64,000 nt of DNA from Herbidospora galbida (GTDB lineage Bacteria > Actinomycetota > Actinomycetes > Streptosporangiales > Streptosporangiaceae): NCBI RefSeq assembly GCF_005233835.1, contig NZ_SZQA01000001.1, positions 372,001 through 436,000 of the forward strand, given 5' to 3'. The stretch's first letter is position 1. Every line of letters starts with the position of its first letter. The notes under the pieces were generated by a model that did not search any database, was not told the DNA's origin, and saw nothing but the letters and a program-made list of their open reading frames with translations. Both the position numbers and the translations under genes were made by a program. Shown here piece after piece: positions 10,079 through 28,550 of this stretch.

Positions 10079-12074
10079 TACCTTTCAGCAGGTCGGGGAT
10101 CTCGGGCACCCGCCAGCAGGCCACCTGGGCGGTCCCGTGCGGCCGGAGCTGCTGCTCCTCGGTACGGCAGCGGTCGGCCGCGAACGGGCAGCGCGCGGCC
10201 AGCGGGCACCCGGTGGCGGCGGCCTCGGTGTCGTCGAGATCTTCGGTGAGCGTCACCTTCGGCCCGGAGAAGCCGGAGCCGAGGCTGGGCGCGCTCGACA
10301 GCAGCGCCCGGGTGTAGGGGTGGCGTGGGCGGCCGAAGACCTCCTCGACCGGGCCCTCCTCGACGATCCGGCCGAGGTAGAGCACGATCACCCGGTCGGC
10401 GAAGCCGCGCACGGTGGCCAGGTCGTGCGAGATGAAGACCGAGCCCCGCGACGGGTCGCGCACCACGTCGGCGATCACGTCGAGGATCTGCGCCTGCACG
10501 GTGACGTCGAGCGCCGAGGTGGGTTCGTCGAAGACGAGCACGTCGGGTTCCCCGGCGAGCGCGCGGGCGATGCAGACGCGCTGCGCCTGCCCGCCCGACA
10601 GTTCGTGGGGGTGGCGGGCCAGCATCGAGCGGTCGATCTTCAGTCGGTCGGCCACGGCGGCGACCCGCTCGGCCCGCTGAGCCGCCGGCAGGCCGAGGGC
10701 CCGGAGCGGTTCGGCGATGGCCTCGGCGACGGTGCGGCGCGGGCTGAGCGACCCGATCGGGTCCTGGAACACCATCTGGACGCGGGTCCGCAACCGGCGC
10801 AGCTCACGTCCGCGCAGGTCGGACATGCGCGACCCGGCCACCCGCACGTCGCCGCGCGCCGCCGGAACCAGGCCGAGCAGCAGCTTGGCCAGGGTGCTCT
10901 TGCCGCAGCCGCTCTCCCCCACCACGCCGAGCGTCTCACCCGCCGCCACCCGCAGGCTGACCCCGCGCAGCGCGGCGTGGCCGCCCTTGCCGAACCGGCT
11001 GCGGTAGACCACGTGGGCGTCGTCGACCTCCAGCACGGCCCGCTCCGCCGCCGTCGCCCGCGCAGGGGTGGCGGCGGGCTCTTCGAAGGCGAGTTCGTCG
11101 GTACGCGGATGGAAGCAGGCCAGGCTCCATTCGTCGGTGGCGCCCGGCACCGGGGTCGGGAGAGGCCGGTCGACGGAGCACTCGGCGGTGGCGTGCGCGC
11201 AGCGCGGCGCGAACGGGCACTCGCGCGGGGCCGCCTTCAGCAGCGGCATCGCGCCCGGCGTGGCGACGACCGCGCGGCCGTCGACGTCGGGGACCGACCG
11301 CAGCAGCGCCCGCGTGTACGGGTGGGCGGGCCGCCCCAGCACCCGCGCGGCCGGGCCGCTCTCCACCACGGTGCCCGCGTAGAGCACCACGACGCGGTCG
11401 CACACGTCGGCGACGGAGGCCAGGTCGTGTGAGATGAGCAGCACTCCCCGGCCGTCGGTGTCGGCGGCGTGCCGGAACTGGCGCAGGATCTCCCTGGTCA
11501 GCGTCACGTCGAGGCCGGTGGTCGGCTCGTCGGCGATGAGCAGGCCGGGGGCGCAGCCGGTGGCCAGCGAGATCATCACCCGCTGGGCCATGCCGCCCGA
11601 CAGCTCGTGCGGGTAGGCGCCCAGCCGCCGCCGGGGCGAGCGGATGCCGACGGCGGCGAACTGCTCCTCGGCGGCCCGCCGCGCCTCGGTCTCGGTCAGC
11701 CGCTGGTGGGTGATCAGGCGGTCGGTGAGCTGGCGGCCCACGGTTCGGGTCGGGCTCAGCGCGCCGCGCGGGTTCTGGAAGCAGATGGCCGCGCCGTGCC
11801 CCCGGTGGCGGCGCAGCGCGTCGTCGTCCATGCGGAGCACGTCGTCGCCCTCGAAGCGGACCGCGCCGGTGGCGTGGGACCCGCCCGGGAGCAGCCCGAC
11901 GATCGAGCGGGCGACCATGCTCTTGCCGCCGCCGCTCTCTCCGACCAGGCCGACCACCTCGCCCCGGCCGACCCGCAGCGTGACGTCGCTGAGCGCGGCC
12001 ACCTCGCGGCCGGGACGGCGGATGACGACCGACAGATTCTCGATCGAGAGCAGGTCAGGGTCCACGGGGCTCAC
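10062..12074 (-). CDS. Fused two-domain ABC transporter ATPase (DppD-DppF type)
   Basis: One 670-residue polypeptide holds two complete ABC ATPases. The first (about 1-320) has Walker A GESGGGKS, signature LSGGMAQR, Walker B LLIADEP; the second (about 345-670) has GESGCGKS, LSGGQAQR and VLVFDEP. Each is followed by the oligopeptide/dipeptide C-terminal cysteine-containing extension (CPFAPRC, CPLAARC), the cluster-like motif of DppD/F and OppD/F. It energises the importer formed with the adjacent permeases. GTG at 12074 overlaps the permease stop as GTGA. The sister operon further right keeps D and F as separate genes, so this is a fusion of the same pair. Confidence 0.92.
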   Translation of the reverse strand: MSPVDPDLLSIENLSVVIRRPGREVAALSDVTLRVGRGEVVGLVGESGGGKSMVARSIVGLLPGGSHATGAVRFEGDDVLRMDDDALRRHRGHGAAICFQNPRGALSPTRTVGRQLTDRLITHQRLTETEARRAAEEQFAAVGIRSPRRRLGAYPHELSGGMAQRVMISLATGCAPGLLIADEPTTGLDVTLTREILRQFRHAADTDGRGVLLISHDLASVADVCDRVVVLYAGTVVESGPAARVLGRPAHPYTRALLRSVPDVDGRAVVATPGAMPLLKAAPRECPFAPRCAHATAECSVDRPLPTPVPGATDEWSLACFHPRTDELAFEEPAATPARATAAERAVLEVDDAHVVYRSRFGKGGHAALRGVSLRVAAGETLGVVGESGCGKSTLAKLLLGLVPAARGDVRVAGSRMSDLRGRELRRLRTRVQMVFQDPIGSLSPRRTVAEAIAEPLRALGLPAAQRAERVAAVADRLKIDRSMLARHPHELSGGQAQRVCIARALAGEPDVLVFDEPTSALDVTVQAQILDVIADVVRDPSRGSVFISHDLATVRGFADRVIVLYLGRIVEEGPVEEVFGRPRHPYTRALLSSAPSLGSGFSGPKVTLTEDLDDTEAAATGCPLAARCPFAADRCRTEEQQLRPHGTAQVACWRVPEIPDLLKGSDIRV

Positions 12075-12931
12075 CGCCGCTTCGCTTCGGCGCGCTCCTG
12101 GAGGCCCTCGCCCAGAAGGCTGAAGCCGAGCACGCAGATGAGCAGGACAAGGCCGGGCGGGACCGAGGTCCACCAGCGTCCGGCCACCACGTCGGGGCTG
12201 CCGAGGCTGATCATCGCGCCCCACTCGGCGGCCGGGACGGTCACGCCCAGCCCGAGGAACGACAGCCCGGCCAGCGTGAGCATCGCCCACCCGGCGTTCA
12301 GGGGCGCGATCACCCGGACCGGGGTCAGGCTGTTGGGCAGCACGTGCCGCCACAGCACCCCGAAGGTGGAGGCGCCCGAGGTGACCGAGGCGGCCACGAA
12401 CGACGACTCGCGGACCGTGCGCACCTCGGCCCTGACCAGCCGGGCGTACGCGGGCGCGTTCACCGCCGCGATCACCGCGATCAGGTTGCCGGTGCCGTTG
12501 CCGACCAGCGCCGCCACCGCCAGGGCCAGGATGAAAGTGGGGAAGGCTTGGAAGACGTCGACCACGCGCATCAGCACGTCGTCGACCCAGCCGCCGAGAT
12601 AGCCGGCCACCAGGCCGAGCGCGGTGCCGGCGACCACGGCCGCGGCCACCCCGGCGACCGCGATGCCGAGGTCGAGGCGGCCGGCGTACAGGAGCCTGCT
12701 CCAGACGTCCATGCCGTTGGCGTCGGTGCCGAGCGGATGGCCGGGGCCGGGCGGCACGAGCGTGCCGAGGGGGTCGATCTCGGTCGGTCCCCAGCCGGTG
12801 AGCAGCGGGGCGACGATCGCGGCCAGCGCGACGACGGCCAGGATCGCCGAGCCGGTGACGATGAGGACGGTGGCGAAGCGGCCCGCGCGGGCCGCGCCGA
12901 CGACGACGGTTTCGGGCATGACTTCGGGCAT
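12071..12931 (-). CDS. ABC transporter permease, DppC type
   Basis: The 286-residue membrane protein has about six hydrophobic segments and the BPD_transp_1 EAA loop. The first helix (residues about 20-45) is followed by the periplasmic PLGTDANGMDVWSRLLYAG motif typical of DppC/OppC. It forms the heterodimeric channel with the next permease. Two ATGs four codons apart (12931, 12919) are both possible. It is spaced 10 bases from the DppB-type gene upstream. Confidence 0.92.
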   Translation of the reverse strand: MPEVMPETVVVGAARAGRFATVLIVTGSAILAVVALAAIVAPLLTGWGPTEIDPLGTLVPPGPGHPLGTDANGMDVWSRLLYAGRLDLGIAVAGVAAAVVAGTALGLVAGYLGGWVDDVLMRVVDVFQAFPTFILALAVAALVGNGTGNLIAVIAAVNAPAYARLVRAEVRTVRESSFVAASVTSGASTFGVLWRHVLPNSLTPVRVIAPLNAGWAMLTLAGLSFLGLGVTVPAAEWGAMISLGSPDVVAGRWWTSVPPGLVLLICVLGFSLLGEGLQERAEAKRR

Positions 12932-12941
12932 GACGCGGCTC

Positions 12942-13952
12942 CTAGATCTGCACGCGCGGGTCGAGGACGGCCTGCACCACGTCGGCGATGAGGAACACCA
13001 CGACGTAGCAGAACGCGATCACCAGCACCGACGCCTGGACGACCGGGTAGTCCCGGTAGAGCAGCCCGCGCAGCGCCCACTGGCCGAAGCCCTGCCACGA
13101 GAACACGTACTCGACCAGCACGGTCGAGCCGATCGAGGTGCCGAAGACCAGCGCGGCCAGCGAGGGCAGCCGGGCCAGCGTGGCCCGCAGCAGGTAGCCG
13201 CGCAGCAGCGTGCGCCCGCGCAGGCCGTGGGCGGTGGCCGCCACGTAGGGCTCGGAGTGCAGCACCTCCAGCGCCGAGGCCCGCACGCTGCGCAGCAGCG
13301 GCGCGACGACCACGATCGACAGCGTCGCCACCGGCAGGATCAGGTGGGCCAGGGCCGACCCGAACGCCGGGCCGTTGAGCGTCAGCGCGGCGTCGAGCAG
13401 GTCGGCCCCGGTGAGCGGGGTCAGGTTGGTGTCCGGGTCGACCCGGCCGCTGGGCGCGGGGAACCAGCCGAGCACGCTGTAGCCGACCAGGATCAGCACC
13501 AGCCCGAGCCAGAACTCCGGCATCGAGTTGCCGACCAGGGCCGCCAGCCGCACCCCGTGGTCGCCGGCCCGGTCGGCGTGCCGCGCCGACCAGACGCCGA
13601 GCAGCACGGCGACGACCAGCGCCACCGCGAGCGCCAGCACGACCAGCTCGAAGGTCGGGCCGATGCGCAGCCCGATCTCCGCGCCGACCGAGGTGCCGCT
13701 CTGGATGGAGGTGCCGAGGTCGCCGGTGACCAGCCCGCCGAGGTAGTCGAGGAACTGCTTCACCATGGGCTGGTCGAGGCCGTAGCGGGCCCGCGCGGCG
13801 GCGGCGTCCTCGGGCGTGGCGTTCGGGCCGAGGATGGTCCGGATCGGGTCACCCGGCAGCACCCGGACCAGCAGGAAGGTCAGGACGACCACTCCGAGCA
13901 GCACCGGGATGAGCTGGAGCAGCCGCCTGCCGACGAAACGCGCGATCCGCAT
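12942..13952 (-). CDS. ABC transporter permease, DppB type
   Basis: The 336-residue inner-membrane protein begins with the classic DppB opening (RIARFVGRRLLQLIPVLLGV, then LVRVLPGDP) and ends with the EYVFSWQGFGQWALRGL and VQAVLDPRVQI motifs of the family. Six transmembrane segments are visible. It pairs with the DppC-type subunit. The gene follows the solute-binding protein gene after only four bases, so all importer parts are on one transcript. Confidence 0.93.
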   Translation of the reverse strand: MRIARFVGRRLLQLIPVLLGVVVLTFLLVRVLPGDPIRTILGPNATPEDAAAARARYGLDQPMVKQFLDYLGGLVTGDLGTSIQSGTSVGAEIGLRIGPTFELVVLALAVALVVAVLLGVWSARHADRAGDHGVRLAALVGNSMPEFWLGLVLILVGYSVLGWFPAPSGRVDPDTNLTPLTGADLLDAALTLNGPAFGSALAHLILPVATLSIVVVAPLLRSVRASALEVLHSEPYVAATAHGLRGRTLLRGYLLRATLARLPSLAALVFGTSIGSTVLVEYVFSWQGFGQWALRGLLYRDYPVVQASVLVIAFCYVVVFLIADVVQAVLDPRVQI

Positions 13953-13956
13953 GTCG

Positions 13957-15585
13957 TTACCCCAGGAAGCGGAGCCGGGCCAGGCCGTCCATGGGCTGCA
14001 CCCACCCGGCCACGTTCTCGCGTACGGGCAGGTTGAAGTTGGGCTGGCAGACGACCACCCAGGGCACGTCGGCGGCGAGGATGTCCTGCGCCTTCGCCCA
14101 CAGCTCGCCGCGCGCGGCGGCCTCGACCGTGGTGTGCGACTCCTCGTAGATCTTCTCGATCTCCGGGTTGGAGTAGTTCGAGTAGTTGAGGTTCGCGCCC
14201 TTCACCAGGCTGGTGGCCAGCATGTACTCGACGTCGTTGACCCACAGCTGGCCCGAGGTGATCTGGAGCGGCACGCTGCGCTTCTGACGGCGTTCGGCCA
14301 GCGTGGCCGGGTCGAGCGGGGCGAGCGTGAGCTCGATGCCGGCCTTGCGGGCCTCGCTCTGCACGAGCACGGCGAGCTGCTGCTGCTCCTCGTTGTCGGC
14401 CTCGAAGACCAGCTCGGAGGCGACGGAGGGCTTGCCCGCCGCCGCCAGCGCCGCCTTGGCCTTCGCCAGGTCGTAGGTGTACGGGTAGCCGCGCTCGTCG
14501 TAGCCGGGCATGTCGAGCGGCACCGGGCTCTTGGCCGGGCGCGCGTCGCCGCCGTAGATGTTGGCGATGATCTGCTCGTACGGCACCGCGTACGCCAGCG
14601 CCTTGCGGACGTTCACGTCGTCGAAGGGGGCGGTGGTCACCGACATCTGGAGGGTGACCTGCTGGTTGCTCGGCGCGGAGATGACCTTGACGCCGGGGAC
14701 CTTCTTGAGGTCGGCGACGTCGCGCTTGCTCACGCCGAGGGCGATGTCGATGTCGCCGTTCTGGAGCTGGAGCCGCTGGTTGGAGGCGGCCGGCACGACG
14801 GAGACGCGGATCGTCGGGGTCTTGGCCGGGTCGGGGCCGGGGTAGCCGGCGTTGGCCGCCAGCACGATCTCCTGGCCCTGGGTGGCCTTCTCGACGTTGA
14901 AGTAGCCGCCGGTGGGCGGGTTCTTGGCGAACCACTCCTTGGCCCAAGGGTCGGCGTCGGTGGCGTGCTTCTTGGCTTCGACGGAGTCGAAGACGTACAG
15001 GGAGATGGCCTGGATCTGCGGGGTGAGCGCGCTCGGGAAGGCCTGGGTGAACTCGACGGTGTAGTCGTCGACGACCTTCACCTGGTCGGGCTCGGTCAGG
15101 CCGATGACGCGGTAGACGCCGGCCACGTTGGCCTGGGCGGCGAAGGCGCGGTCCTTGGACCACTTGACGTCGGCGGCCTTCATCTCGTTGCCGCTGGCGA
15201 ACTTGACGCCCTTGCGCAGCTTGAGGGTCCAGACCTTCTGGTCGGCGCTCGGGGTGAAGGACTCGGCGAAGGTGGGCGTGATGTTCGTGGTGTCGAGGAT
15301 CTGGGCCCCGTTCACGTCGGTCACGCCGTAGTCGATCAGGTAGGGGTAGACGTTCTTGTAGAGCATGAGCGCGGTGAGGTCGAAACCGACGAAGTCCTGG
15401 TCCCAGCTGCTGAGGTAGCTGGAGACGGCGATCCGCAGGGACGACGCGGCGGCGGGGGCGGTGCCGGAAGGGGCGTTCGCGCCCTGGGGCTTGGAGCCGG
15501 CGGCGCAGCCGGTGGCCAGCAGCAGGGCGACGCCGCCGCCGAGCTGGAGCACCGACCGACGAGAGAAAGCGGGTGAACCAGCCAT
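13957..15585 (-). CDS. Peptide-type ABC solute-binding lipoprotein (SBP_bac_5), Tat signal
   Basis: The 542-residue protein captures the substrate outside the cell. Its N-terminus has a twin-arginine motif (SRRSVLQLGG) followed by a hydrophobic stretch and LLATGC, so it is probably a Tat-exported lipoprotein. The mature domain has the SBP_bac_5 pattern (WTLKLRKGVKFASGNEMKAADV; ADLKKVPGVKVI). ATG at 15585 is chosen because GGAAGG lies seven bases upstream and it starts the signal peptide; an earlier start at 15633 would add an odd basic leader. First gene of the ABC-Hyu operon, so the promoter lies in 15586-15741. Confidence 0.93.
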   Translation of the reverse strand: MAGSPAFSRRSVLQLGGGVALLLATGCAAGSKPQGANAPSGTAPAAASSLRIAVSSYLSSWDQDFVGFDLTALMLYKNVYPYLIDYGVTDVNGAQILDTTNITPTFAESFTPSADQKVWTLKLRKGVKFASGNEMKAADVKWSKDRAFAAQANVAGVYRVIGLTEPDQVKVVDDYTVEFTQAFPSALTPQIQAISLYVFDSVEAKKHATDADPWAKEWFAKNPPTGGYFNVEKATQGQEIVLAANAGYPGPDPAKTPTIRVSVVPAASNQRLQLQNGDIDIALGVSKRDVADLKKVPGVKVISAPSNQQVTLQMSVTTAPFDDVNVRKALAYAVPYEQIIANIYGGDARPAKSPVPLDMPGYDERGYPYTYDLAKAKAALAAAGKPSVASELVFEADNEEQQQLAVLVQSEARKAGIELTLAPLDPATLAERRQKRSVPLQITSGQLWVNDVEYMLATSLVKGANLNYSNYSNPEIEKIYEESHTTVEAAARGELWAKAQDILAADVPWVVVCQPNFNLPVRENVAGWVQPMDGLARLRFLG

Positions 15586-15664
15586 AGCTCGCCTTCCACG
15601 AACAGGTGTGTGCGGGCTGGGGGTCGCCCGCACCTAGCACCGTTCTACCAAGGCGAAACTTCCG

Positions 15665-15741: not shown

Positions 15742-16731
15742 TTAAAGCGCAATGGCGGGCAGGACCTCGCTGCCGAGCTTCTCGACGGCCTCCCGCAGGT
15801 CAGGGCCGAGCGGCGGCCCGAACGACAGGTGGGTGGCGCCCGCCGCCCGCAGCGCCCGGCAGCGGTCGACCACGTCGGCCGTGCCGCCGGTGATGCCGAG
15901 CGACAGCATGCGGTCGTCGACCAGCCGCGCGGCGGCGTCCAGGCCGTCGCGCTCCAGCACGGCCGTGATCGGGGCGAAGTCCTCCACCGCGAGCCCCGCC
16001 CGGCTGAGCAGGTACGGCGCGAACGACGGCCCGTAATAGGCGATCTTGGCGGCCATGGCGAGCCGGGCCCGCTCGTCGTCGTCGCCGGTCGACACCCAGA
16101 AGCAGGCCGGGATGTCGAGCTCCTCGACGGACCGCCCCGCCTCCTCGGCCCCCTTCGCCACCTCGGCCCTCGCGGTGGTGAAGTGTTCCGGCGGATAGAG
16201 CAGCGGCAGCACGCCGTCGGCCAGCCGCCCGGCCATCTGGAGCATCTTGGGGCTCATCGCGCCGACGTACACCGGCACCGGATCGCCCGGCGGCAGGCGC
16301 AGCTCCGACAGCGGGCCGAACCACGCGGGCAGCTCGCCCCCGACCTCCTCCGCGCCGAGCAGTGCCCGCAGCACGGTGACCGCCTCGGCGGTCTTGGACA
16401 GCGGGCGCGGGCGCTCGATCCCCGCCCAGCCGAGGAACTCGGCCGACCCGGCGGCGACGCCCAGCAGGAACCGGCCGCCGGTGGCCTCGCGCATGGTGGC
16501 GGCCATCATCGCGATCTCCGACACGTGCATGGAGTAGGGGTTCATGATGCCGACGCCGAGCTTGATGCGCTCGGTCCTGGCGGCCAGGACGCCGAGCAGC
16601 ACCGGGGCCGAGCGCAGGAACAGGTCGTTGGAGACCCACAGCTGGTCGAAGCCGTGCCGTTCGGCCCGCCGCGCCAGGTCGACCAGGGTCGGGATGTCGA
16701 GGTCGTTGTTGACCCGCAGGGAGAACGTCAT
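15742..16731 (-). CDS. LLM-class (F420-type) flavin-dependent oxidoreductase
   Basis: The 329-residue protein has the luciferase-like monooxygenase TIM barrel: an N-terminal LVDLARRAERHGFDQLWVSND segment, GVGIMNPYSMHVSEIAMM and GGRFLLGVAAGS loops, and a C-terminal GTADVVDRCRALRAAGATH cofactor-side region. In actinomycetes this group mostly uses coenzyme F420 or FMN. The start overlaps the tri-domain peptidase stop (ATGA), making it the last gene of the second ABC operon. It may reduce or oxidise an imported or released product; the substrate is unknown. Confidence 0.88.
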   Translation of the reverse strand: MTFSLRVNNDLDIPTLVDLARRAERHGFDQLWVSNDLFLRSAPVLLGVLAARTERIKLGVGIMNPYSMHVSEIAMMAATMREATGGRFLLGVAAGSAEFLGWAGIERPRPLSKTAEAVTVLRALLGAEEVGGELPAWFGPLSELRLPPGDPVPVYVGAMSPKMLQMAGRLADGVLPLLYPPEHFTTARAEVAKGAEEAGRSVEELDIPACFWVSTGDDDERARLAMAAKIAYYGPSFAPYLLSRAGLAVEDFAPITAVLERDGLDAAARLVDDRMLSLGITGGTADVVDRCRALRAAGATHLSFGPPLGPDLREAVEKLGSEVLPAIAL

Positions 16732-19076
16732 GCGCCGACCGCCTTCGCGTCGATCTCTACTTCGACCAGGAATCCCTCGCCGATGAGGGCGTTGACGACG
16801 TACGTGCTGTTGGCGGGGGCCACGTCGCCGAGCACCTCGGCGTGGGCGCGCGCGGCCTGCTCCCAGTCGGCGTCGGGGGTGAGCAGCAGCCGGGTGCGGA
16901 ACACGGTGTCGCGCGAGCCGCCCAGCGCCTCCACCGCCGCAACGCCCCGGCGCAGGGCCTCAAGGGTCTGGGCGTAGGCGTCCGGGCCGTCGGCCGTCGT
17001 GCCGCTCACGGCGATGAGGTCGCCCTCGCGGGCGGCGCGGGAGTAGCCGGCCTGCTCCTCCCAGCCCGAGCCGTCCTTGAACCGGGTCGCCGGGGGAATC
17101 GAGCCCTGCGCAGGGTCGGTGTACTCCTCGATCCGGACGACCTGGCCGTTCCGGACCTCGACGAACATCATCGCGTCGACGGCCATCTCGGCGCCGCGCT
17201 CACGGCCCCGGTAGACGCAGCGCTGCACGTAGCCGCCGGCCACCGGGTCGACGCGCACGCCGGTGGCGCGGAAGTCCTCGATCTCCGCGTCGAAGCGGCG
17301 GATCGCGTCGAGGCTCTCGGCCTTGTCCCGCTCGACTCCGTCGTAGTTGTGCCAGATGCGGATGTCGTCGGCGTACAGGCGGTCGAGGCGGGCGACGTCG
17401 CCGGAGGTGATGGCGTCCAGGAGTTCGGCGGCGAAGGCGCGCATGTCACCGGCGAGGGCGTCGGCCCTGCGCAGTTCTCCGTCGTCGCCGAGCAGCTGCA
17501 GGCGCTGCACGGCCAGCGGGATGTTGCCGTCGGCCCACAGCGCGTCGTGGAAGGCGCGCAGGTCGAAGCCGTCGCGGTCGCGGCGGGCGGCGTCGGCCAG
17601 CAGGCGGGTCACCTGGACCTTCCCGACCTGGTACGACAGCCCCTGGCCCGGGGCCGACGCGAAGAAGGCGGCCTCCTCCCTGGCGGTGTCGAGGTCGACC
17701 GGCACGAGTTCGTGCAGCATGCGGGCCGCGCCGTCGATGTCGAGCTCGCCGAGCGCCAGGCGCACGTCCACCTCGACCCTGATCGCGCGCAGCCGCATGA
17801 AGTTGTAGACGATGGCCCGGGTGAGCGGCGCGTCCTCGAACAGGCCGGCCTGGAGCATCATCTCCTCGTTGTAGAAGGCGATGCCCTCGTTGGGCACCGA
17901 GTCGTAGAAGCGGCGGTGGGCCGGGTCGGGGTGCCGCCAGGTCAGCGCGAGCTGCTGGTAGTGGACGCCCTCGTGGATGATCCCGGCCCGGGGGTCGGCG
18001 GCGTTGGCCCGGTAGAAGTAGGGCAGGTCCGGGCCCGGCACCGGGACGTAGGCGATGCCGTCCTGGTCGAGCCGGTGCTCGTCGGTCAGGTCGTCGCTGA
18101 CGCCCAGCCAGCGCAGCGGCTCCAGGTAGTCGGGCCGGGGCAGGTTCCGGTAGTGCCGCAGCTCCGCCGGCTGCGACAGCAGGCCGCGCTCCTCGTAGAA
18201 GGCGCGCACGTCCAGTTCGGCGGCCCGTTCGGCCGCGCTCTGCTCCTCGGCGCTCGCCGGGGGCGGCGGCCACTCGGGCGGGCCCGACCTGGCCCGCTCG
18301 AACAGCTCGAAGGCCTCGGCCCGGTCGCGCTCCTGGGCGGCCAGGGCGAGGATCTCGTCGGCCGACCAGGGCAGCAGGGCGACCTGGTGCAGGAAGAAGC
18401 CGAACGCCTCCGCGCCGACGGGCCGGTGCGGGGCGAGGCCCGGCAGCCGCTCGATCAGCCACGCCCGCCAGTCGGCGAGCGCCCGCGCCGCCTCCTCGGC
18501 CGCCGCCGCCGCGGCGTCGCGGGCGGCCGGATCGAGGTGCGGCAGCAGCAGGCCGACGGCGGTCCGGAGCTGGTCGGGCACGTCGGCGCTGTCGGTCAGG
18601 GCGAGCTCGGCGAACTCGCGGGTCGCGGTGCCGTCGAGGTTGTCCCTGGCGGTGTCGAGGGTGCCGGGGATCCAGCGCAGCCGCTCGACCAGGTCGGCGC
18701 TGCGGGCCGCGTCGAAGGGACCCGGCTGGAGCAGCGCGTCGTAGACGTGGCCGACGGTCTGGTCGAGGTAGAACCAGGGGTCGCGCCGCCAGCTCCGGAG
18801 GACGTCGAGCTCCCAGCGCACCCGCGCGGTCGCCGAGCCGAGCAGCCGGCGCGGCACCTCGATCGCGGGGTCGTCCGACGGCGCGACCGTCGCCAGGTCG
18901 CTCTCGATCCCGGCCAGGAAGCGCAGGTCCTCCTCGACGGTGAGGGCGTCCCACTCCGGACGCCACCCGGCGGGCCGGACCACCCGGGGGATGTCGTCGC
19001 GGCTACGCGGCGTGGTGGCCAGCCGCCAGGCCCAGAACCGCTCGGTCAGCTCCGCGAGCACGAGATGTCCTTCCAT
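16728..19076 (-). CDS. Three-domain fusion: DUF885 metallopeptidase, SnoaL-like, RidA-like
   Basis: A single uninterrupted 782-residue frame. Residues 1-540 match DUF885 peptidases: HEGVH at 368-372 (HExxH zinc motif) and NEGIAFYNEE at 396-405, the EGxAxYxE motif supplying the third ligand. Residues 546-656 form an NTF2/SnoaL-like domain. Residues 668-780 form a RidA/YjgF-like domain with the family's GDLIAVSGTT opening and VEVEIDAKAV ending, but the usual substrate-binding Arg in P-x-R-S/T-x-V is missing (PANSTYVV). DUF885 proteins are normally about 550-600 residues. The gene sits between the DppF-type ATPase and an LLM oxidoreductase, so the product probably processes the imported peptide. 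No frameshift or clear internal ribosome site is seen. Confidence 0.85.
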   Translation of the reverse strand: MEGHLVLAELTERFWAWRLATTPRSRDDIPRVVRPAGWRPEWDALTVEEDLRFLAGIESDLATVAPSDDPAIEVPRRLLGSATARVRWELDVLRSWRRDPWFYLDQTVGHVYDALLQPGPFDAARSADLVERLRWIPGTLDTARDNLDGTATREFAELALTDSADVPDQLRTAVGLLLPHLDPAARDAAAAAAEEAARALADWRAWLIERLPGLAPHRPVGAEAFGFFLHQVALLPWSADEILALAAQERDRAEAFELFERARSGPPEWPPPPASAEEQSAAERAAELDVRAFYEERGLLSQPAELRHYRNLPRPDYLEPLRWLGVSDDLTDEHRLDQDGIAYVPVPGPDLPYFYRANAADPRAGIIHEGVHYQQLALTWRHPDPAHRRFYDSVPNEGIAFYNEEMMLQAGLFEDAPLTRAIVYNFMRLRAIRVEVDVRLALGELDIDGAARMLHELVPVDLDTAREEAAFFASAPGQGLSYQVGKVQVTRLLADAARRDRDGFDLRAFHDALWADGNIPLAVQRLQLLGDDGELRRADALAGDMRAFAAELLDAITSGDVARLDRLYADDIRIWHNYDGVERDKAESLDAIRRFDAEIEDFRATGVRVDPVAGGYVQRCVYRGRERGAEMAVDAMMFVEVRNGQVVRIEEYTDPAQGSIPPATRFKDGSGWEEQAGYSRAAREGDLIAVSGTTADGPDAYAQTLEALRRGVAAVEALGGSRDTVFRTRLLLTPDADWEQAARAHAEVLGDVAPANSTYVVNALIGEGFLVEVEIDAKAVGA

Positions 19077-19079
19077 GAG

Positions 19080-20021
19080 TCACTTCGCCAGCACGCAGGC
19101 GGCCGACCGGCCGTCCCGCAGGATCGTCAGCGGCGGGTCGTCGTCCGCGCACGACGGCAGGGCCACCGGGCAGCGCGGGTGGAACCGGCACCCGCCGGGC
19201 GGCCGCGAGGGGTCGGGCACGTCGCCCGGCAGCTCGACCGGCAGCACGCCCGCGCCGTCGGCCCGGGGCACCGCCGAGATGAGCGCCTTCGTGTACGGAT
19301 GGGCGGGCTCCGACCACACCTGCCGGGTCGGCCCGACCTCGACGACCCGCCCCAGGTACATGACCGCCGTGCGGTCGGCGATCTGCCGCACCACCGACAG
19401 GTCGTGCGAGATGAACACCATGCCCATGTCGAGCTCGCGGACCAGCTCCACCAGCAGGTTGGCGACCGACGCCTGCGCCGAGGCGTCGAGCGCGCTGATC
19501 GGCTCGTCGGCGATGATGCAGCTCGGCTCGGCGGCCAGGGTCCGGGCGATCGCGATGCGCTGGCGCTGGCCGCCGCTGAACTCGTGCGGGTAGCGCTTCA
19601 CCGCGTCGGCCGGGAGGCCGACGCGTTCGAGCAGCTCACCGGCCCGGCGGCGGGCCTCCGCCTTGGACGTCCCGCCGAGCAGGTACCCGTCCCCGACCTG
19701 GTCGCCGACCAGGCGGCGGGGGTTGAGGGAGGCGTACGGGTCCTGGAAGACCATCTGCAGCCCGCGCAGGTCGGCGGGACGGCGGCGCAGCCCCAGCGGC
19801 GCGACCGGGCGGCCGTCGAAGCGGATCTCCCCGGCGGCGGTGCGCTGGAGCCCGACGACCGCGCGGCCCAGCGTCGACTTGCCGCACCCGGACTCGCCGA
19901 CCAGCCCGAGGATCTCGCCCCTGTTCAGGGTCAGGTCGGCGTGGTCGACGGCGCGCAGCGGCGGCGCGCCGGTCCGGTGGTATTCGACGGCGACCCCGGT
20001 CGCCTCCAGCAGCGCGGTCAC
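19080..20021 (-). CDS. ABC transporter ATPase, DppF/OppF type
   Basis: The 313-residue ATPase has Walker A GESGCGKST, signature FSGGQRQR, Walker B CIIADEP with switch region, and the oligopeptide-family C-terminal extension with CRFHPRCPVALPSC. GTG at 20021 overlaps the DppD-type stop (GTGA), giving strict coupling of the two ATPases. It lies three bases upstream of the peptidase fusion gene. Confidence 0.93.
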   Translation of the reverse strand: MTALLEATGVAVEYHRTGAPPLRAVDHADLTLNRGEILGLVGESGCGKSTLGRAVVGLQRTAAGEIRFDGRPVAPLGLRRRPADLRGLQMVFQDPYASLNPRRLVGDQVGDGYLLGGTSKAEARRRAGELLERVGLPADAVKRYPHEFSGGQRQRIAIARTLAAEPSCIIADEPISALDASAQASVANLLVELVRELDMGMVFISHDLSVVRQIADRTAVMYLGRVVEVGPTRQVWSEPAHPYTKALISAVPRADGAGVLPVELPGDVPDPSRPPGGCRFHPRCPVALPSCADDDPPLTILRDGRSAACVLAK

Positions 20022-20998
20022 GCGGTATCTCCCAGCGGGTCGGGGGGACAGGCCAGCCGGTGGTCGGATCCGACGAGCACCGGCTCGGGGCGGTCCACCC
20101 GGCACGAGTCGACGGCGAAGGCGCAGCGGGGATGGAACGCGCACCCCTCGGGCACCGCGCCGAGCGACGGCGGGCTGCCCGAGATCGGCCGCAGCGTCGC
20201 CGCCCCGCCCTCCGGGTGCGGCAGCGCGTCGAGCAGGCCCCGGGTGTAGGGATGCCGGGGGTGGGTCAGCACGGTCTCGCGCGGCCCGACCTCGGCGGTG
20301 CGGCCGCCGTACATGACGCAGATGCGGTCGGCCACGGCCGACATCACGCCCAGGTCGTGGGTGATCACCACGACCGCCAGGTCGCGCTCCTGCCGCAGCC
20401 GGTTCAGCAGCCGCAGGATGCCCGCTTGCACGGTCACGTCGAGCGCGGTCGTCGGCTCGTCGGCCAGCAGCAGCCGGGGCTCGCAGGCCAGCGCGACGGC
20501 GATGGCGATGCGCTGGCGCATGCCGCCGGAGAACTGCGCCGGGTGCGCCTTCAGCGCCCGCTCCGGATCGGGGATCCGCACGGTCGACAGCAGCTCCACC
20601 GCCCGGCCGCGCGCCTCCGCCTTGCCGATCCCCAGGTGGTGGCGCATGTGCTCGGTCACCTGGGTCTCGATGCTGAGCATCGGGTGCAGGCTCGTCGACG
20701 GGTCCTGCGACACCATCGCGATGCTGCGCCCGCGCACGTCGCGCAGCTCGCGCGGCTTCATGGCCAGCAGGTCGCGGCCCTCGAAGACGGCCCGGCCGCT
20801 GGTGCGGGCGGCGTGCGGGAGCAGGCCGAGCAGCGCCATCGCGGTCATCGTCTTGCCGCTGCCGCTCTCCCCCGCGATGCCGAAGACCTCGCCGGAGTCG
20901 ACCCGGAACGACAGGCCGTCGACGGCCTTGCGGGGTCCGTTCCTGGTGGCGAGCCACACGGTGAGGTCCTCGACCTCCAGTAGCGTTCCCACGGTCAC
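20018..20998 (-). CDS. ABC transporter ATPase, DppD/OppD type
   Basis: The 326-residue ATPase has Walker A GESGSGKT, signature FSGGMRQR, Walker B LLLADEP and the C-terminal CAFHPRCAFAVDSC motif of peptide importers. GTG at 20998 is taken as start because family similarity begins at once (LLEVEDLTVW); a GTG two codons later is equally possible. A longer frame to 21103 runs into the inserted TnpB element and is rejected. The normal upstream neighbour, the DppC-type permease, is now separated from it by the insertion. Confidence 0.92.
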   Translation of the reverse strand: MTVGTLLEVEDLTVWLATRNGPRKAVDGLSFRVDSGEVFGIAGESGSGKTMTAMALLGLLPHAARTSGRAVFEGRDLLAMKPRELRDVRGRSIAMVSQDPSTSLHPMLSIETQVTEHMRHHLGIGKAEARGRAVELLSTVRIPDPERALKAHPAQFSGGMRQRIAIAVALACEPRLLLADEPTTALDVTVQAGILRLLNRLRQERDLAVVVITHDLGVMSAVADRICVMYGGRTAEVGPRETVLTHPRHPYTRGLLDALPHPEGGAATLRPISGSPPSLGAVPEGCAFHPRCAFAVDSCRVDRPEPVLVGSDHRLACPPDPLGDTA

Positions 20999-21087
20999 CA
21001 AGACCGTCCGGCAGAGATGCTCAGCCGTCCGGGACGGGGAGGAAATGCGGAACACTGCGGCACTTTTCGATCTCCCTGATTCTGCCG

Positions 21088-22305
21088 GTGGGGTCCGATA
21101 CATTCATCCGCGTGTCCCGTTACCGCCTTTCGCCCACGCCTGCCCAGGAGGCGGCGTTGGCGGAGCATTGCGGGCACGCGCGTTTTGTGTGGAATCTCGC
21201 CGTCGAACAGCATTCGTTTTGGAAGCCGGGCGGCGGCAGCGCCCCTGGATTCGCCGAACAATGCCGCCAACTGACGGAGGCGCGAACTGAATTCGAATGG
21301 CTGCGTAATGGCTCCGTCGTCGTCCAGCAGCAGGCACTCAAAGACTTCGCCCAAGCCATGGCGAATTTCTTCCGCAGAACGCACAACCGGCCGACATGGC
21401 GAAAGCGCGGGCAGAACGAGGGCTTCCGCATCGTGGCGATCACGCCCAGCGACGTTCGCCGCCTTTCCCGTCACGTCGGCGAGGTCAAGGTCCCCAAAGT
21501 CGGCTGGGTCCGTTTCCGCTGGTCGCGATCCGTTCCAGATGGCGTGAAGTCCTACCGCGTCACCTGGGACCGAGCCGGGCGCTGGCATGTCGCGTTCGCC
21601 GCGATTCCAGAGCCCATCCCCGCGCCGGGAAGAGGTGAAGTAGTCGGTGTGGATCGCGGAGTGGCCGTCGCGGCAGCCCTGTCCACAGGTGAACACCTGG
21701 TCATGCCCACACTGCGGGACACGGAGAAGGCGCGGCTTCTGCACCTGCTGCGAAAACTTGCTCGCGCCAAGCGCGGGTCGAATCGGCGTCGCAAGGTCAA
21801 GCAGGCCATCGCCCGCGTCAGGGCGCGCGAGATCGACCGGCGTAAGGATTGGGTGGAGAAGACCACCACCATGCTCGCGCGGCGGTTCGATGTCATCGGA
21901 GTGGAGGACCTGAAGGTCGCCGCCATGACCCGTTCGGCCAAGGGCACGATCGAGCGGCCGGGACGGAACGTTCGCCAGAAGGCCGGGCTCAACCGAGACA
22001 TTCTCGCAGCTGGATGGGGCCGGCTCGACGCCCGGCTCAAAGACAAGGCCTCCGTCCGGGTCGTCAAAGTCAATCCCGCTTATACATCGCAGACCTGTAA
22101 TCGCTGCGGGCATCGTGACCCGGATAACCGTGAGAGCCAAGCGGTGTTCCGGTGTCGCGCCTGTGGGCATCAGGAGAACGCCGATGTGAACGCCGCCAGA
22201 AACGTTCGTGATATCGCCGCAGGGCATGCGGTGAATGCGCGGGGAGGCGACCGGGCTACCGGGCCTATGAACCGCGAACCTCAACTCGTCCTCCTTTCAG
22301 CGTGA
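21088..22305 (+). CDS. tnpB: TnpB RNA-guided nuclease
   Basis: The 405-residue protein has the N-terminal helix-turn-helix segment (YRLSPTPAQEAALAEHCGHA), the wedge region (RPTWRKRGQNEGFRI), and a RuvC domain with all three acidic residues in their motifs: GVDRGV (Asp), GVEDL (Glu) and NADVNAARN (Asp). A zinc finger with C-x2-C and C-x2-C (TCNRCGH, CRACGH) lies between RuvC II and III. All catalytic parts are intact, so it may be an active omega-RNA-guided endonuclease. GTG at 21088 or 21112 could be the start; neither has a good ribosome site. It runs antisense to the interrupted importer operon. Confidence 0.92.
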   Translation: MGSDTFIRVSRYRLSPTPAQEAALAEHCGHARFVWNLAVEQHSFWKPGGGSAPGFAEQCRQLTEARTEFEWLRNGSVVVQQQALKDFAQAMANFFRRTHNRPTWRKRGQNEGFRIVAITPSDVRRLSRHVGEVKVPKVGWVRFRWSRSVPDGVKSYRVTWDRAGRWHVAFAAIPEPIPAPGRGEVVGVDRGVAVAAALSTGEHLVMPTLRDTEKARLLHLLRKLARAKRGSNRRRKVKQAIARVRAREIDRRKDWVEKTTTMLARRFDVIGVEDLKVAAMTRSAKGTIERPGRNVRQKAGLNRDILAAGWGRLDARLKDKASVRVVKVNPAYTSQTCNRCGHRDPDNRESQAVFRCRACGHQENADVNAARNVRDIAAGHAVNARGGDRATGPMNREPQLVLLSA

Positions 22306-22348
22306 GATGAGTTGTAATCCCCCGCCTTCGGACGGGGGAGGATGTCAA
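22200..22348 (+). ncRNA. Putative omega-RNA (reRNA) scaffold at the TnpB element right end
   Basis: Known TnpB proteins use an RNA made from the 3' end of tnpB and the element's right end, with the guide read from flanking DNA. Here the scaffold would end in the hairpin 22319-22338 (CCCCCGCC, TTCG loop, GGACGGGGG with one mismatch) and the terminal TCAA. The guide would then begin at about 22349, inside the end of the DppC-type permease gene. The 5' limit is approximate; the assignment follows from the TnpB family and not from any promoter seen. Confidence 0.4.
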
Positions 22349-23181
22349 CCCCTGATCGCACGCGCGGTGCGCGGATCGAGGGCGTCCCGCAGCGTGTCTC
22401 CGACGAAGTTGAAGGCGAGCACGACGGTCAGGATGGACAGGCCCGGATACAGCCACAGCCACCACAGGTCGAAGTAGTCCATGCCGGACACCACCATCGA
22501 GCCCCACTCGGCCATGGGCGGCTGCGCGCCGAGTCCCAGGAACGACAGTCCCGACAGCAGCAGCACGGCGTTGCCGACGTCGAGCGCCGCCATGACCAGC
22601 ACCGGCCCGGCGACGTTCGGCCGCAGGTCGACGATCATCGTGCGGACGGACGAGGATCCGAGCAGCCGCCCGGCCGCGACGTACTCGGAGTTGCGGGCCG
22701 ACATGACCAGGCCGCGCACCAGCCGGGCGTACGACGGCCACGACACCACGACCACCGCGAGCACGGCGTTGCGCAGCTCGGGGCCGAGCGCGGCGGCGAC
22801 CGCCATCGCCAGGATGATGCCGGGGAAGGCGAACACCAGGTCGGCCAGCCGCATGAGCGTGCCGTCGACCCAGCCGCCGAAGAACCCGGCCACCGCGCCG
22901 ACGACCGAGCCGATCACCGCCGAGAGGGCGACGAGCAGGAACGCGAGCGGCAGCGAGACCTGCGCGCCGTAGATGACGCGGCTGAGCACGTCGCGGCCGA
23001 GCTGGTCGGTGCCGAACAGGTGCTGCGCCGACGGTTCGAGCAGCTTGTCGGCGATCTGGTCGAGCGGGCCGTACGGCGCCAGCACGGGCGCGAGCACCGC
23101 CACCAGCACCCACAGCACGACGAAGGCGGCGCCGACCAGGGCCAGGGGCTGCCGCCACGGGGTGCGGGATCCAGTCGTCAT
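22345..23181 (-). CDS. ABC transporter permease, DppC type (second importer)
   Basis: The 278-residue membrane protein has the DppC layout: an N-terminal helix, a HLFGTDQLGRDVLSRVIYGA periplasmic motif, five further helices and the EAA-loop SARNSEYVAAGRLLGSS. It ends normally with ALDPRTARAIRG. Its TGA stop lies in the last bases of the TnpB element's right end, so the insertion was placed exactly at the gene's 3' boundary without truncating it. ATG at 23181 overlaps the upstream stop (ATGA). Confidence 0.92.
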   Translation of the reverse strand: MTTGSRTPWRQPLALVGAAFVVLWVLVAVLAPVLAPYGPLDQIADKLLEPSAQHLFGTDQLGRDVLSRVIYGAQVSLPLAFLLVALSAVIGSVVGAVAGFFGGWVDGTLMRLADLVFAFPGIILAMAVAAALGPELRNAVLAVVVVSWPSYARLVRGLVMSARNSEYVAAGRLLGSSSVRTMIVDLRPNVAGPVLVMAALDVGNAVLLLSGLSFLGLGAQPPMAEWGSMVVSGMDYFDLWWLWLYPGLSILTVVLAFNFVGDTLRDALDPRTARAIRG

Positions 23182-24260
23182 GTGAGCCTGATCCTCGGGT
23201 CGATGACCCCGTACAGCAGGTCGACGAGCAGGTTGATGAGGATGTACACGCCGGCGACGACGATGCTGACGCCCATGATGCCGGGCAGGTCGAGGTTGAC
23301 CGCGCTGCGGTAGGCGTACTGGCCGACCCCGGGCCAGGAGAAGATCTTCTCCACCAGCACGGCGCCCGACAGCAGGCTGCCGAAGGCGACGCCGGCCACG
23401 GTGATGATCGCGACCATCGCGGGGCGCAGCACGTGCCGCACGATGACGACCCGCTCGGGCAGGCCCTTGGCCCTGGCCGCGCGCACGTAGTCGTTGCCGA
23501 GGATCTCCAGCACCGACGCGCGGCTGAAGCGCATCAGCATGCCGACCGTGTAGACGGCCAGCACCAGCGACGGCAGCACCAGGTGACCGAGCGCCGACCA
23601 CATCACGTCCCACTGTCCGGCCAGCGCCGCGTCCACGGAGTAGAAGCCGGTGGTGTACGGCGGCGGGCTCAGCACCGGATCGAGCCGTCCGGTGCCCGGC
23701 AGCAGGTCGAACTTGAAGGACAGCAGGTAGAAGGCGACGAGCGCGACCCAGAAGGTGGGCATGGACACCCCGCCCAGGCTCACCACGCGCAGCACCTGGT
23801 CGGGCCAGCGGTCGCGGTTGACGGCGGCCACCACGCCGAGGGCGACGCCCACGACCAGCGACAGCACGATCGCGAACAGCGCGAGCTCGATCGTGGCCGG
23901 CACGAACTCGGCCAGGTCTTCGGCCACCGGCCGGTGGCTCTGCTGCGACATGCCCAGGTTCCCCTGGAACACGTTGCCGATGTACGTCAGGTACTGCACC
24001 GGAAGGGGCTGGTCGAGCCCGTACTTGGCGCGGAACGCGGCCACCGCGGCCGGGTCGCCGATCGCCTGCTGCCCCAGGTTGGCGGCGGCGGGATCGCCCG
24101 GGACCAATTGGGTCAGGGTGAAGGCCACGAGGGTGATGCCCACGCACAGCAGCAGGGCGGCCGCGAGCCGCCGGGCCAGGAACCGCAGCAGCACCCCGCC
24201 GGGACGGGCCGGCCTGCGACCCGTCCCGGGGGCACCGCTTTTCGGCTTAGCCGAGCTCAC
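23178..24260 (-). CDS. ABC transporter permease, DppB type (second importer)
   Basis: The 360-residue permease has a short basic leader and then the DppB hallmark (LLRFLARRLAAALLLCVGIT, LTQLVPGDPAA) and the closing EKIFSWPGVGQYAYRSAVNL and IDPRIRL. Six helices are visible. The GTG start at 24260 overlaps the solute-binding gene by 14 bases; an internal start after the leader cannot be excluded. Partner of the DppC-type subunit downstream. Confidence 0.92.
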   Translation of the reverse strand: MSSAKPKSGAPGTGRRPARPGGVLLRFLARRLAAALLLCVGITLVAFTLTQLVPGDPAAANLGQQAIGDPAAVAAFRAKYGLDQPLPVQYLTYIGNVFQGNLGMSQQSHRPVAEDLAEFVPATIELALFAIVLSLVVGVALGVVAAVNRDRWPDQVLRVVSLGGVSMPTFWVALVAFYLLSFKFDLLPGTGRLDPVLSPPPYTTGFYSVDAALAGQWDVMWSALGHLVLPSLVLAVYTVGMLMRFSRASVLEILGNDYVRAARAKGLPERVVIVRHVLRPAMVAIITVAGVAFGSLLSGAVLVEKIFSWPGVGQYAYRSAVNLDLPGIMGVSIVVAGVYILINLLVDLLYGVIDPRIRLT

Positions 24261-25833
24261 GGACGTTGACCAGCCAGAGGGCGTTCGACTGCAGGTTGGT
24301 CACCGACTTGGCGGCGACCAGGATCTGCGCCGGCTGGATCAGCGGCATGATCGGGCCGCCCTCGTTCATCTTGTGCTGGATGTCGACGTACAGCGCCGAG
24401 CGGGCGGCGTCGTCGACGGTGGTGCGGGCCTTGCCGCCCAGCTCCTCCAGCTCGGGGGCGCTGCCCTCGGCCCATCCGGCGCGCAGGCCCACGAGCTGGC
24501 CCGGGAGGAAGTTGAGGTAGTTGCTGGGGTCGGGGAAGTCGGGGCCCCACTGCCACAGGCCCAGTTCCTCGGTGCCGCCGCGGTAGGACTCCAGCGCGGT
24601 CTGCACCGACGCAGGGGCCAGCTCCACGTTGATGCCGACCTCCTTGAGGTTGGCCTGGACGCGGGCGGCGAGGTCGCCGAAGTTGAGGCCGTTGACCTGC
24701 ACGTCGCTCGGGTAGTTCAGCTTGACGGTCGGGTTCTGCAGGCCCGACTCGGCCAGCGCGGCCTTGGCCTTGGCGACGTCGCGCTTGATGCCGTCGCCGG
24801 CCGGGAGCGCGCCGAGGAAGACCGACGGCACGATGCCGGGCGCCTGCACGGCTCCCTCACCGGCCAGGTCGACCAGTCCCTGGTAGTCGATGCCGTAGCG
24901 CACCGCCTCCTGGAACTTCGGGTTCGAGGAGATCTTGGAGATCTCCGGGTTGTTGTTGGTGAACAGGAAGAACACGTTCGGCGAGGCGCCGTTCACGACC
25001 TGGAGGTCGCCCATGTTCTTGGCCTGCTCGGGCGACAGGTCCACCGCGATCTGCGACTCGCCCTTCTGGACGTTGAGCCGCTGCACGTTGGCCTGCGTGT
25101 TGCGGACGACGACCTTGGAGTAGGCGGGCTTGGTGCCCCAGTAGTTCTCGTTCAGCTTCAGCACGACCTGCGAGGTGGTGCTGTAGCTCTCCAGGACGTA
25201 CGGCCCGCTGCCCAGCGACTGCTTGTTGAAGAACGCCTCGGCGGTGTCGGTCTTGTCGGCGTCCTCGGCGTCGCTGGCGCCGTTCTTCTTGGCCACGGCC
25301 GAGTTGACGATGCCCAGCGCGGGGTTGGGCAGGATGAACGGGATGGCGGTGTTGGGCTCCTCGCTGGCGATCTCGACGGTGGTCGCGTCGGGCGCGGTGA
25401 CCGTGAGGCCCGCCATCAGGAACGACGGGTTGCCCTTGACGTTCTTCACGCGGTTGAGCGAGAAGACGACGTCGGCCGAGGTGACCGGGGTGCCGTCGGA
25501 GAACTTCGCCTCGGGGCGCAGCTTGAACGTGAAGGTCTTGGCGTCGTCGGAGGCGGTGTACGACGCCGCGAGCGCCGGGACCGGCTTGGTGACGTCGCCG
25601 CCCTTGAAGGTGAGCAGCGTGTCGTAGATCGTCTGGTCGATCAGCAACCCCGAGGGCTCGAACATGCGGGCCGGGTCGGTGGTCTTGAGCTGGAACGCGG
25701 TGTCGATGACGAGGGTCTTCCCGCCCTGCCCGCCGGGCGAGGACGGGGCGGCGGTGTTGCCACCGCCGCAGGCGGCGAGCAGGCTCAGCGCCACTGCGGC
25801 GGTGAGCGCACCGGCAGACCGGCGGATCTTCAT
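24247..25833 (-). CDS. Peptide-type ABC solute-binding lipoprotein (SBP_bac_5)
   Basis: The 528-residue protein starts with a lipoprotein signal (MKIRRSAGAL, hydrophobic core, LSLLAAC lipobox). The mature part has the SBP_bac_5 features (TFTFKLRPEAKFSDGTPVTS, VVFSLNRV, YGIDYQGLVD). ATG at 25833 is chosen because GGAG stands seven bases upstream; a TTG at 25845 would lengthen the leader. It heads the second importer operon, and its promoter and operator lie in 25928-25987. Confidence 0.93.
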   Translation of the reverse strand: MKIRRSAGALTAAVALSLLAACGGGNTAAPSSPGGQGGKTLVIDTAFQLKTTDPARMFEPSGLLIDQTIYDTLLTFKGGDVTKPVPALAASYTASDDAKTFTFKLRPEAKFSDGTPVTSADVVFSLNRVKNVKGNPSFLMAGLTVTAPDATTVEIASEEPNTAIPFILPNPALGIVNSAVAKKNGASDAEDADKTDTAEAFFNKQSLGSGPYVLESYSTTSQVVLKLNENYWGTKPAYSKVVVRNTQANVQRLNVQKGESQIAVDLSPEQAKNMGDLQVVNGASPNVFFLFTNNNPEISKISSNPKFQEAVRYGIDYQGLVDLAGEGAVQAPGIVPSVFLGALPAGDGIKRDVAKAKAALAESGLQNPTVKLNYPSDVQVNGLNFGDLAARVQANLKEVGINVELAPASVQTALESYRGGTEELGLWQWGPDFPDPSNYLNFLPGQLVGLRAGWAEGSAPELEELGGKARTTVDDAARSALYVDIQHKMNEGGPIMPLIQPAQILVAAKSVTNLQSNALWLVNVRELG

Positions 25834-25927
25834 GAGGGACTCCAAGGCCGGGCTATGGGGGCCCGCTCAGACATATGGGGCGATGTCATGACTCTCCTGT
25901 GCGGCAGCGGCGCGAGGCCGCAACCCG

Positions 25928-26088: not shown

Positions 26089-26113
26089 TGCGATGGTAGG
26101 AAGGACGGCGCGG

Positions 26114-28432: not shown

Positions 28433-28550
28433 GGCGACCTTCGGTTCATAAAGCGGTTGAGCGGTTTGGCCGTGAAACAACAGGCCAAGGGCGCATCGTA
28501 CCGTTAAGCGCTCCTTCTAAACATATGACCGATTGGTGGAGCATGAAGTT
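28433..28550. promoter_or_regulatory. Divergent control region between Lrp gene and kynA
   Basis: This 118-base gap must hold both promoters and any Lrp site. It has three CGGTT repeats near the Lrp end and a GGCC pair flanking a GTGAAACAACA stretch. I find no strong -35/-10 pair. The exact operator is not resolved. Confidence 0.4.

Follow-up and report, generated by a model that had tools for sequence, protein, structure and literature searches.

What task could bring together, in a single polypeptide, a predicted metallopeptidase, an NTF2-like domain and a member of the Rid/YjgF family? The question is posed by a 64,000-nucleotide stretch of the Herbidospora galbida genome (assembly GCF_005233835.1, contig NZ_SZQA01000001.1, positions 372,001 to 436,000; hereafter the window, with coordinates counted from its first letter), in which one minus-strand gene joins a DUF885 domain, a SnoaL/NTF2-like domain and a Rid domain among genes for an oligopeptide-type importer and an LLM (Bac_luciferase) oxidoreductase. 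The fusion was confirmed as a real and conserved three-domain protein: a predicted zinc peptidase is joined to an NTF2-like pocket domain, with an atypical Rid domain at the C-terminus. It may be a multifunctional enzyme within a catabolic gene cluster for taking up and breaking down an amide-bonded, peptide-like compound, its Rid part serving the LLM step; to this reading we assign a probability of about one half. What computation established is the conserved frame, the predicted fold of each of the three domains, the composition of the cluster, the HExxH signature with its Glu and the Rid-LLM overlap, and what we infer beyond this concerns substrate, reaction, metal and channelling.

Architecture and conservation of the fusion protein

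The fusion gene runs stop-free from ATG to TGA over 782 codons (Table 1). One three-domain frame of this length had been proposed in the initial annotation of the locus, and it was borne out by Pfam, in which DUF885, Ribonuc_L-PSP, SnoaL_2 and DUF4440 all exceeded their curated cut-offs, by fold comparison and by the same frame in other genomes. Structure prediction, which that annotation had recommended, recovered all three folds: the AlphaFold2 model, built with 33 aligned sequences as input, reached a mean pLDDT of 87.2 and a pTM of 0.76, and residues 655-662, in the linker between the SnoaL and Rid parts, formed its sole segment of at least three residues with pLDDT below 50. When the C-terminal 242 residues were modelled alone, the same two folds, NTF2-like and Rid, were obtained (pLDDT 84.7, pTM 0.49). 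The domain limits used here (DUF885 ~1-540, SnoaL/NTF2-like 541-655, Rid/YjgF 666-780) were taken from alignments with relatives and are wider than the Pfam spans.

A homologue scan over a collection with one genome per species yielded 31 loci (numbered with the prefix L below). The same unbroken three-domain frame was found in 11 further genomes (12 with the window) from five genera and two families, the carriers being six Herbidospora species, Acrocarpospora macrocephala, A. phusangensis, Microbispora corallina, Micromonospora yasonensis and a Dactylosporangium metagenome-assembled genome (MAG). Acrocarpospora corrugata (L011) has a two-domain form that ends after SnoaL, with no fused Rid. 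In the window's own family, 19 of 341 genomes gave a match at E 1e-60; eleven of these were of the fused type with at least 79% identity (including the window and the two-domain A. corrugata, and largely the same assemblies as the scan loci), and in the remaining eight the match was limited to the DUF885 part (42-61% identity). The 13 fused DUF885 domains formed one branch in a quick tree (SH-aLRT support 100). The median ratios of nonsynonymous to synonymous substitution (dN/dS) were 0.29 for DUF885, 0.37 for SnoaL and 0.24 for Rid among seven Herbidospora sequences, and 0.21, 0.19 and 0.11, respectively, among five non-Herbidospora fusions, and are thus well below 1 in all three domains. A frame error splitting the gene, which the initial annotation had envisaged, is excluded because the frame stands open in the assemblies of 11 other genomes; a chance open frame was likewise rejected on this ground and on dN/dS. 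The SnoaL-Rid linker varies in length, being short in Herbidospora but reaching about 100 residues in A. phusangensis (L008, 8001-10658), where it consists of repeated Ser/Gly/Pro-rich units.

The DUF885 family (PF05960) matched with 131 bits against a gathering cut-off of 32.4, in two stretches of which the best covers residues 359-523. In the model of the fusion, this part has the same fold as the solved DUF885 structures over about 500 residues (3o0y, Z 27.1, root-mean-square deviation (rmsd) 3.3, 513 aligned; 3u24, Z 26.9; 3iuk, Z 26.8). The titles of these structures state no function, and Pfam itself labels DUF885 a protein of unknown function. The family has been assigned to the Peptidase_MA clan, and for one DUF885 protein a zinc site made up of two His and one Glu was predicted (PMC12572635); another PF05960 fusion, with a phosphorylase, has been described in Talaromyces (PMC8478523). 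The motifs HEGVH and EGIAFYNEE, earlier called intact, are indeed both present (HEGVH from residue 368, NEGIAFYNEE from residue 396) and provide the HExxH plus downstream Glu signature of the Peptidase_MA clan type (H368, E369, H372, E397), in which Glu397, 25 residues past HExxH, is a candidate third metal ligand. The His/Glu motif and the EGxA-type motif align with those of canonical DUF885 homologues, but the canonical form is HExxPGH, seen as HE(A/G)YPGH in 8/8 canonical homologues and in its longer form also in 3u24 and 3iuk (3o0y was not in that alignment), whereas the fusion protein, which also carries two extra domains, is not of the canonical type: with the PG missing, its motif becomes a textbook HExxH. 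HEG(V/A)H occurred in all 35 cluster-type DUF885 sequences (the window and 34 relatives), and HExxH is a trait of the DUF885 subfamily tied to this cluster type.

The middle domain was recognised by SnoaL_2 (36.6 bits against a cut-off of 27, residues 551-649) and DUF4440 (36.4 bits, residues 547-631). Its modelled fold resembles those of ketosteroid isomerase and limonene-epoxide hydrolase (Z ~16), the best-specified match being ketosteroid isomerase 5kp1 (Z 16.1, rmsd 2.2, 115 aligned). The likeness to these enzymes and to SnoaL cyclases consists of the shared fold and the Pfam match and stays at fold level; the fused domain differs from the known SnoaL/NTF2-like enzymes in being of a WHN-motif type, of which six standalone relatives with 31-41% identity were found in 396 genomes. 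A SnoaL gene beside the unfused cluster L017 was considered as the origin of the fused domain and is not supported as its source, since a profile of the fused domain missed the L017 gene at E 1. Genes of the L017 type were also found downstream in some fused loci.

The Rid domain and its LLM neighbour

The C-terminal part was matched by Ribonuc_L-PSP (PF01042, Rid/YjgF) with 40.4 bits against a cut-off of 27.3 (residues 675-777), and in the fusion model its fold agreed with 3i7t (Z 18.6, rmsd 1.6, 117 aligned), the structure of Rv2704, which is the closest solved Rid relative at 38-42% identity. Unlike Rv2704 and the Rid family, the window's Rid is fused, has Asn for the deaminase Arg and groups with LLM-adjacent Rids. 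In the alignment, PANSTY stands against PARSTY of Arabidopsis RidA (5hp7), which places Asn at the position of RidA Arg105. The same Asn was found in 12/12 fused proteins, so that the Arg common to the RidA, Rid1-3 and RutC deaminases is absent from all of them. Arg105 is required for Rid deaminase activity (PMC4433059, PMC8113886). The Rid4-7 groups are without this Arg, and deaminase activity has been demonstrated for none of them (PMC4433059, PMC8113886); their activities and functions were called completely unknown in 2015 (PMC4433059). At the Arg site, Trp is found in Rid4 and Rid7, and the residue is variable in Rid5 and Rid6 (PMC4433059); with Asn at this site, the window's domain therefore appears to be an Arg-less Rid of the Rid5/6-like type.

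A separate Asn-type Rid copy in the fused genomes was also considered and rejected, since a search at E 1e-8 of 10 of the other 11 genomes with the three-domain frame (all but that of L005) revealed no second Rid of more than 46% identity. In the window's own genome, the only one where the second-Rid site was read, the second Rid has Cys at the Arg105 site. Another Rid-family match lies in the window at ~36924-37289. In a marine Acidiferrobacteraceae MAG (L024, 6900-8420, plus strand), an aldo/keto reductase is fused to an Asn-type Rid directly before an HExxH-type DUF885 gene.

The stop codon of the fusion gene and the start codon of the LLM gene overlap as ATGA in the window. An ATGA or GTGA overlap precedes the LLM gene in 11 of the 12 other fused loci (L007 has TGATG, and in L011 the overlap is made by the SnoaL end), and separate Rid and LLM genes overlap in the same way in 4/4 unfused loci examined. 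The fusion had been placed at the end of an operon. It instead keeps the Rid-LLM overlap, and an amidohydrolase gene follows the LLM gene in L004, L006, L008, L009, L011 and L014; the fusion gene therefore lies in the middle of the cluster. Among 33 Rid-bearing loci, an LLM gene adjoined 10/13 Rids with Asn at the Arg105 position and 0/20 other Rids, mostly within 1.5 kb, a contrast that is indicative and not a clean test, since 7/10 of the adjacent cases come from genomes also carrying a DUF885 gene, one (L053) was counted by a weak 41% match, four rows end at contig ends, about 7 of the 20 align too weakly for the site to be certain, and a single location in the genome of the window entered the count more than once. 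On the Rid tree, the fused and LLM-linked Rids, which have the same Asn, stood together with a support of 92 (only 3/29 inner branches were starred).

Gene neighbourhood, proposed role and alternatives

On the minus strand of the window, the genes are arranged in the order solute-binding protein (SBP), DppB, DppC, OppD, OppF, fusion and LLM, and gene order, strand and overlaps suggest that they form one operon. The proposed linkage to a peptide-type importer and an LLM oxidoreductase was upheld, for importer, DUF885 and LLM are present in 13/13 fused loci, with Rid in 12/13 and the amidohydrolase in 9/13; the search for the same domain order and its neighbours, also suggested earlier, thus returned 11 more genomes with the frame and a conserved importer and LLM gene beside it. 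For comparison, neighbours were counted in 19 unfused loci of at least 12 kb, with thresholds of at least 44% identity per gene for the five-gene importer and at least 50% for LLM; the shorter loci L021, L026, L027, L028, L030, L048 and L098 were left out, and L093 and L092 duplicate L021 and L025, respectively. The full importer was found in 11 of these, LLM in 9, Rid in 8, the amidohydrolase in 4 and an S9 peptidase in 3, and LLM was also present in 7/8 of those with Rid. As had been expected for families that are usually separate, DUF885 stands alone in the unfused relatives, and in 8/19 a separate Rid gene is located in the same locus. In L017 (Paractinoplanes tereljensis), the succession runs from a separate SnoaL-type gene through Rid, LLM and DUF885 to the importer genes. 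The fused proteins therefore sit in a gene cluster that is partly common to other actinobacteria and comprises an oligopeptide-type importer, DUF885, Rid, LLM and sometimes an amidohydrolase.

A possible pathway can be outlined from these components. The oligopeptide-type importer would bring the compound in, and the DUF885 domain would cut an amide bond as a metallohydrolase of the gluzincin-like type, its metal being held by HExxH and Glu397. The LLM enzyme may perform a redox step on the substrate or on a cleavage product, and the Arg-less, Asn-type Rid would serve this step by binding or converting the LLM product or by docking the LLM enzyme, and would not act as an imine deaminase of the standard kind. 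The NTF2-like domain could provide a further pocket or an assembly surface, and the amidohydrolase and, in some other taxa, the S9 peptidase may complete the breakdown. By fusion of Rid and peptidase, two steps that would be run by separate neighbouring proteins in other actinobacteria would be joined. Dehydropeptides and diketopiperazines were considered as substrates, and the evidence singles out neither.

Several observations weigh against this proposal. The full importer is missing from 8/19 unfused DUF885 loci (L023 has a weaker one); L020, L094, L095, L096 and L099 have neither full importer nor Rid nor LLM, and L031, L032 and L097 have the importer with no Rid or LLM in the locus, a Rid-LLM pair being located elsewhere in the L032 genome (L100). 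No Rid was found at E 1e-8 in 4/12 genomes searched (L016, L023, L029, L031), and in two of these, L016 and L029, importer, DUF885 and LLM are nevertheless present. A. corrugata keeps importer and LLM and has lost the Rid domain; at E 1e-8 its genome has one Rid only, which is 43% identical and has Cys at the site. No WHN-type SnoaL domain was found adjoining unfused DUF885 genes in the loci examined, and a different SnoaL gene, not of the WHN type, is present in L017, L029 and L031. Hydantoinase-type genes beside DUF885 in two Pseudomonadota loci make a non-peptide amide possible. Finally, the activities named for the domains of this system are predictions from sequences and models.

How the two C-terminal domains contribute may be viewed differently. 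NTF2-like proteins often dimerise. Rid proteins are typically trimers (PMC4433059), and the SnoaL and Rid domains may therefore be non-catalytic assembly modules that bring copies of the peptidase, and perhaps also the LLM enzyme, together in one larger particle. The replaced deaminase Arg, the variable linker and the ability of A. corrugata to cope without Rid would agree with such a role, which we regard as possible though somewhat unlikely: in both sets the median dN/dS is lower for Rid than for the other two domains, and the Asn is identical in fused and LLM-linked Rids, which together fit a specific site, and separate Asn-type Rids stand beside LLM without DUF885 in the stretch examined (L034, 16 kb; L042 and L043, ~3 kb each). 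A neutral fusion, in which neighbouring genes were joined and the domains work independently with no functional link, is an unlikely explanation. The variable linkers and the loss of Rid in A. corrugata suggest loose coupling, and neighbouring genes of one cluster can fuse readily; against this, the fused branch kept all three domains in 12 of its 13 genomes, which belong to two families, and no second Rid above the identity threshold given earlier was found in the 10 fused genomes searched, of 11.

Other alternatives concern the chemistry. It had been suggested that a released amine or enamine is handled by the attached domains; put in full, an imine or enamine released by the peptidase or LLM enzyme (e.g., 2-aminoacrylate from a dehydropeptide) would be hydrolysed by the attached Rid. 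The Rid fold and family, and an adjoining oxidoreductase that could generate imines, speak for this idea, and the Rut pyrimidine pathway offers a parallel, RutA being LLM-like. In that pathway, the Rid protein RutC is encoded in one operon with the flavoenzyme RutA and an amide hydrolase, and deaminates 3-aminoacrylate (PMC8113886). RutC, however, carries the Arg and is inactive as an R104A variant (PMC8113886), whereas Asn is found in 12/12 fused proteins, and the Arg-less Rid4-7 groups are without known activity in the account of PMC4433059. Enamine handling would therefore be done by a Rid without its key residue, and the suggestion as originally worded, which is not supported, must be considered very improbable. 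It is rather doubtful, too, that DUF885 hydrolyses a non-peptide amide such as a ring-opened hydantoin or lactam product. In the two Pseudomonadota loci, the genes after an HExxH-type DUF885 gene encode a short-chain dehydrogenase, an Asp/Glu/hydantoin racemase and HyuA (HyuB was seen in L023), and the cluster of the window includes a HyuA-HyuB-HyuB cassette that has an importer of its own; against this, HyuA has a single match (L094, 27%) and HyuB no match in the 17 unfused loci from actinobacteria, and peptidase-like genes occur in some of the actinobacterial unfused loci. A bolder form of the preferred multifunctional-enzyme reading makes the Asn-type Rid a new catalytic class that processes an unstable LLM product of the DUF885-released fragment, with the NTF2-like domain as holding or isomerising pocket and HExxH-DUF885/Rid/LLM as an undescribed catabolic module; it is speculative and we consider it improbable.

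The component families are known. For the architecture, which the initial annotation did not recognise as a described enzyme, no description was found in the open-access literature, most subscription papers being outside the scope of the search; the same holds for the HExxH DUF885 subfamily and the coupling of Asn-type Rid and LLM, and nothing relevant was found there on a Rid-peptidase fusion or a dehydroalanine-RidA link. The fusion and its cluster tie the Asn-type Rid group to a defined partner, the overlapping LLM gene, and to a predicted metallopeptidase, so that the functions of an Arg-less Rid and of a DUF885 domain become testable in one protein. The proposed pathway, if true, would be a new actinobacterial route for the degradation of an unusual peptide or amide; otherwise the protein would be an uncommon but ordinary domain fusion. 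A new catalytic class would assign a function to an Arg-less Rid and a DUF885 protein in a new kind of substrate-channelling enzyme.

Other features of the window

The LLM protein scored 204.8 bits with Bac_luciferase; its best curated model is methylenetetrahydromethanopterin reductase with 218.4 bits, under the cut-off of 276. The second cassette of the window (Table 1) is not found at this place in L004 and L014, where the amidohydrolase homologue directly follows LLM, and it is present as far as HyuA in L005, L010, L012 and L013, whose locus sequences end there. The two HyuB copies of the window are 77% alike.

Table 1. Positions of the fusion gene, its domains and the surrounding genes in the window.
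Feature	Coordinates	Strand	Basis or remark
DUF885-SnoaL-Rid fusion gene, 782 residues	16728..19076	-	Open reading frame and Pfam; same three-domain frame in 11 other genomes
DUF885 domain, residues ~1-540	17457..19076	-	Pfam, fold match, motifs
SnoaL/NTF2-like domain, residues ~541-655, conserved WHN motif	17112..17456	-	Pfam, fold match, motif
Linker end and Rid/YjgF domain, residues 659-782	16731..17102	-	Pfam, fold match, alignments
LLM (Bac_luciferase) oxidoreductase	15742..16731	-	Pfam; start overlaps fusion stop by ATGA
OppF-type ATPase	19080..20018	-	
OppD-type ATPase	20018..21103	-	Homology to relatives starts near 20980
DppC-type permease	22345..23157	-	
DppB-type permease	23178..24260	-	
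Peptide-type solute-binding protein (SBP_bac_5)	24247..25845	-	
Helix-turn-helix-type regulator, divergent	26093..26650	+	56% identity to regulator beside L017 unfused cluster; assigned by that likeness
TIGR04076-type small protein	26668..26982	+	81% identity to L017 member
Second LLM oxidoreductase	26982..27986	+	78% identity to L017 member
Amidohydrolase, Xaa-Pro-dipeptidase-like	3480..4718	-	233 bits, under model cut-off of 500
Second cassette: SBP, DppB, DppC, double ATPase, HyuA, HyuB, HyuB	4715..15633	-	Between LLM and amidohydrolase

An IS605/TnpB-type gene (21088-22305, plus strand) lies on the opposite strand between DppC and OppD inside the importer genes; in L004, the matches to DppC and OppD are less than 20 bases apart, with no insert. 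A TIGR04076-type gene stands directly before the second LLM gene in the window and in L004, L005, L006, L008, L011, L016, L017, L018, L028, L030 and L034, and the pair occurs without DUF885 in the L034 stretch examined. Beside the cluster, at 27983-30657 of the window, are genes for an Lrp/AsnC regulator, tryptophan 2,3-dioxygenase and kynureninase.

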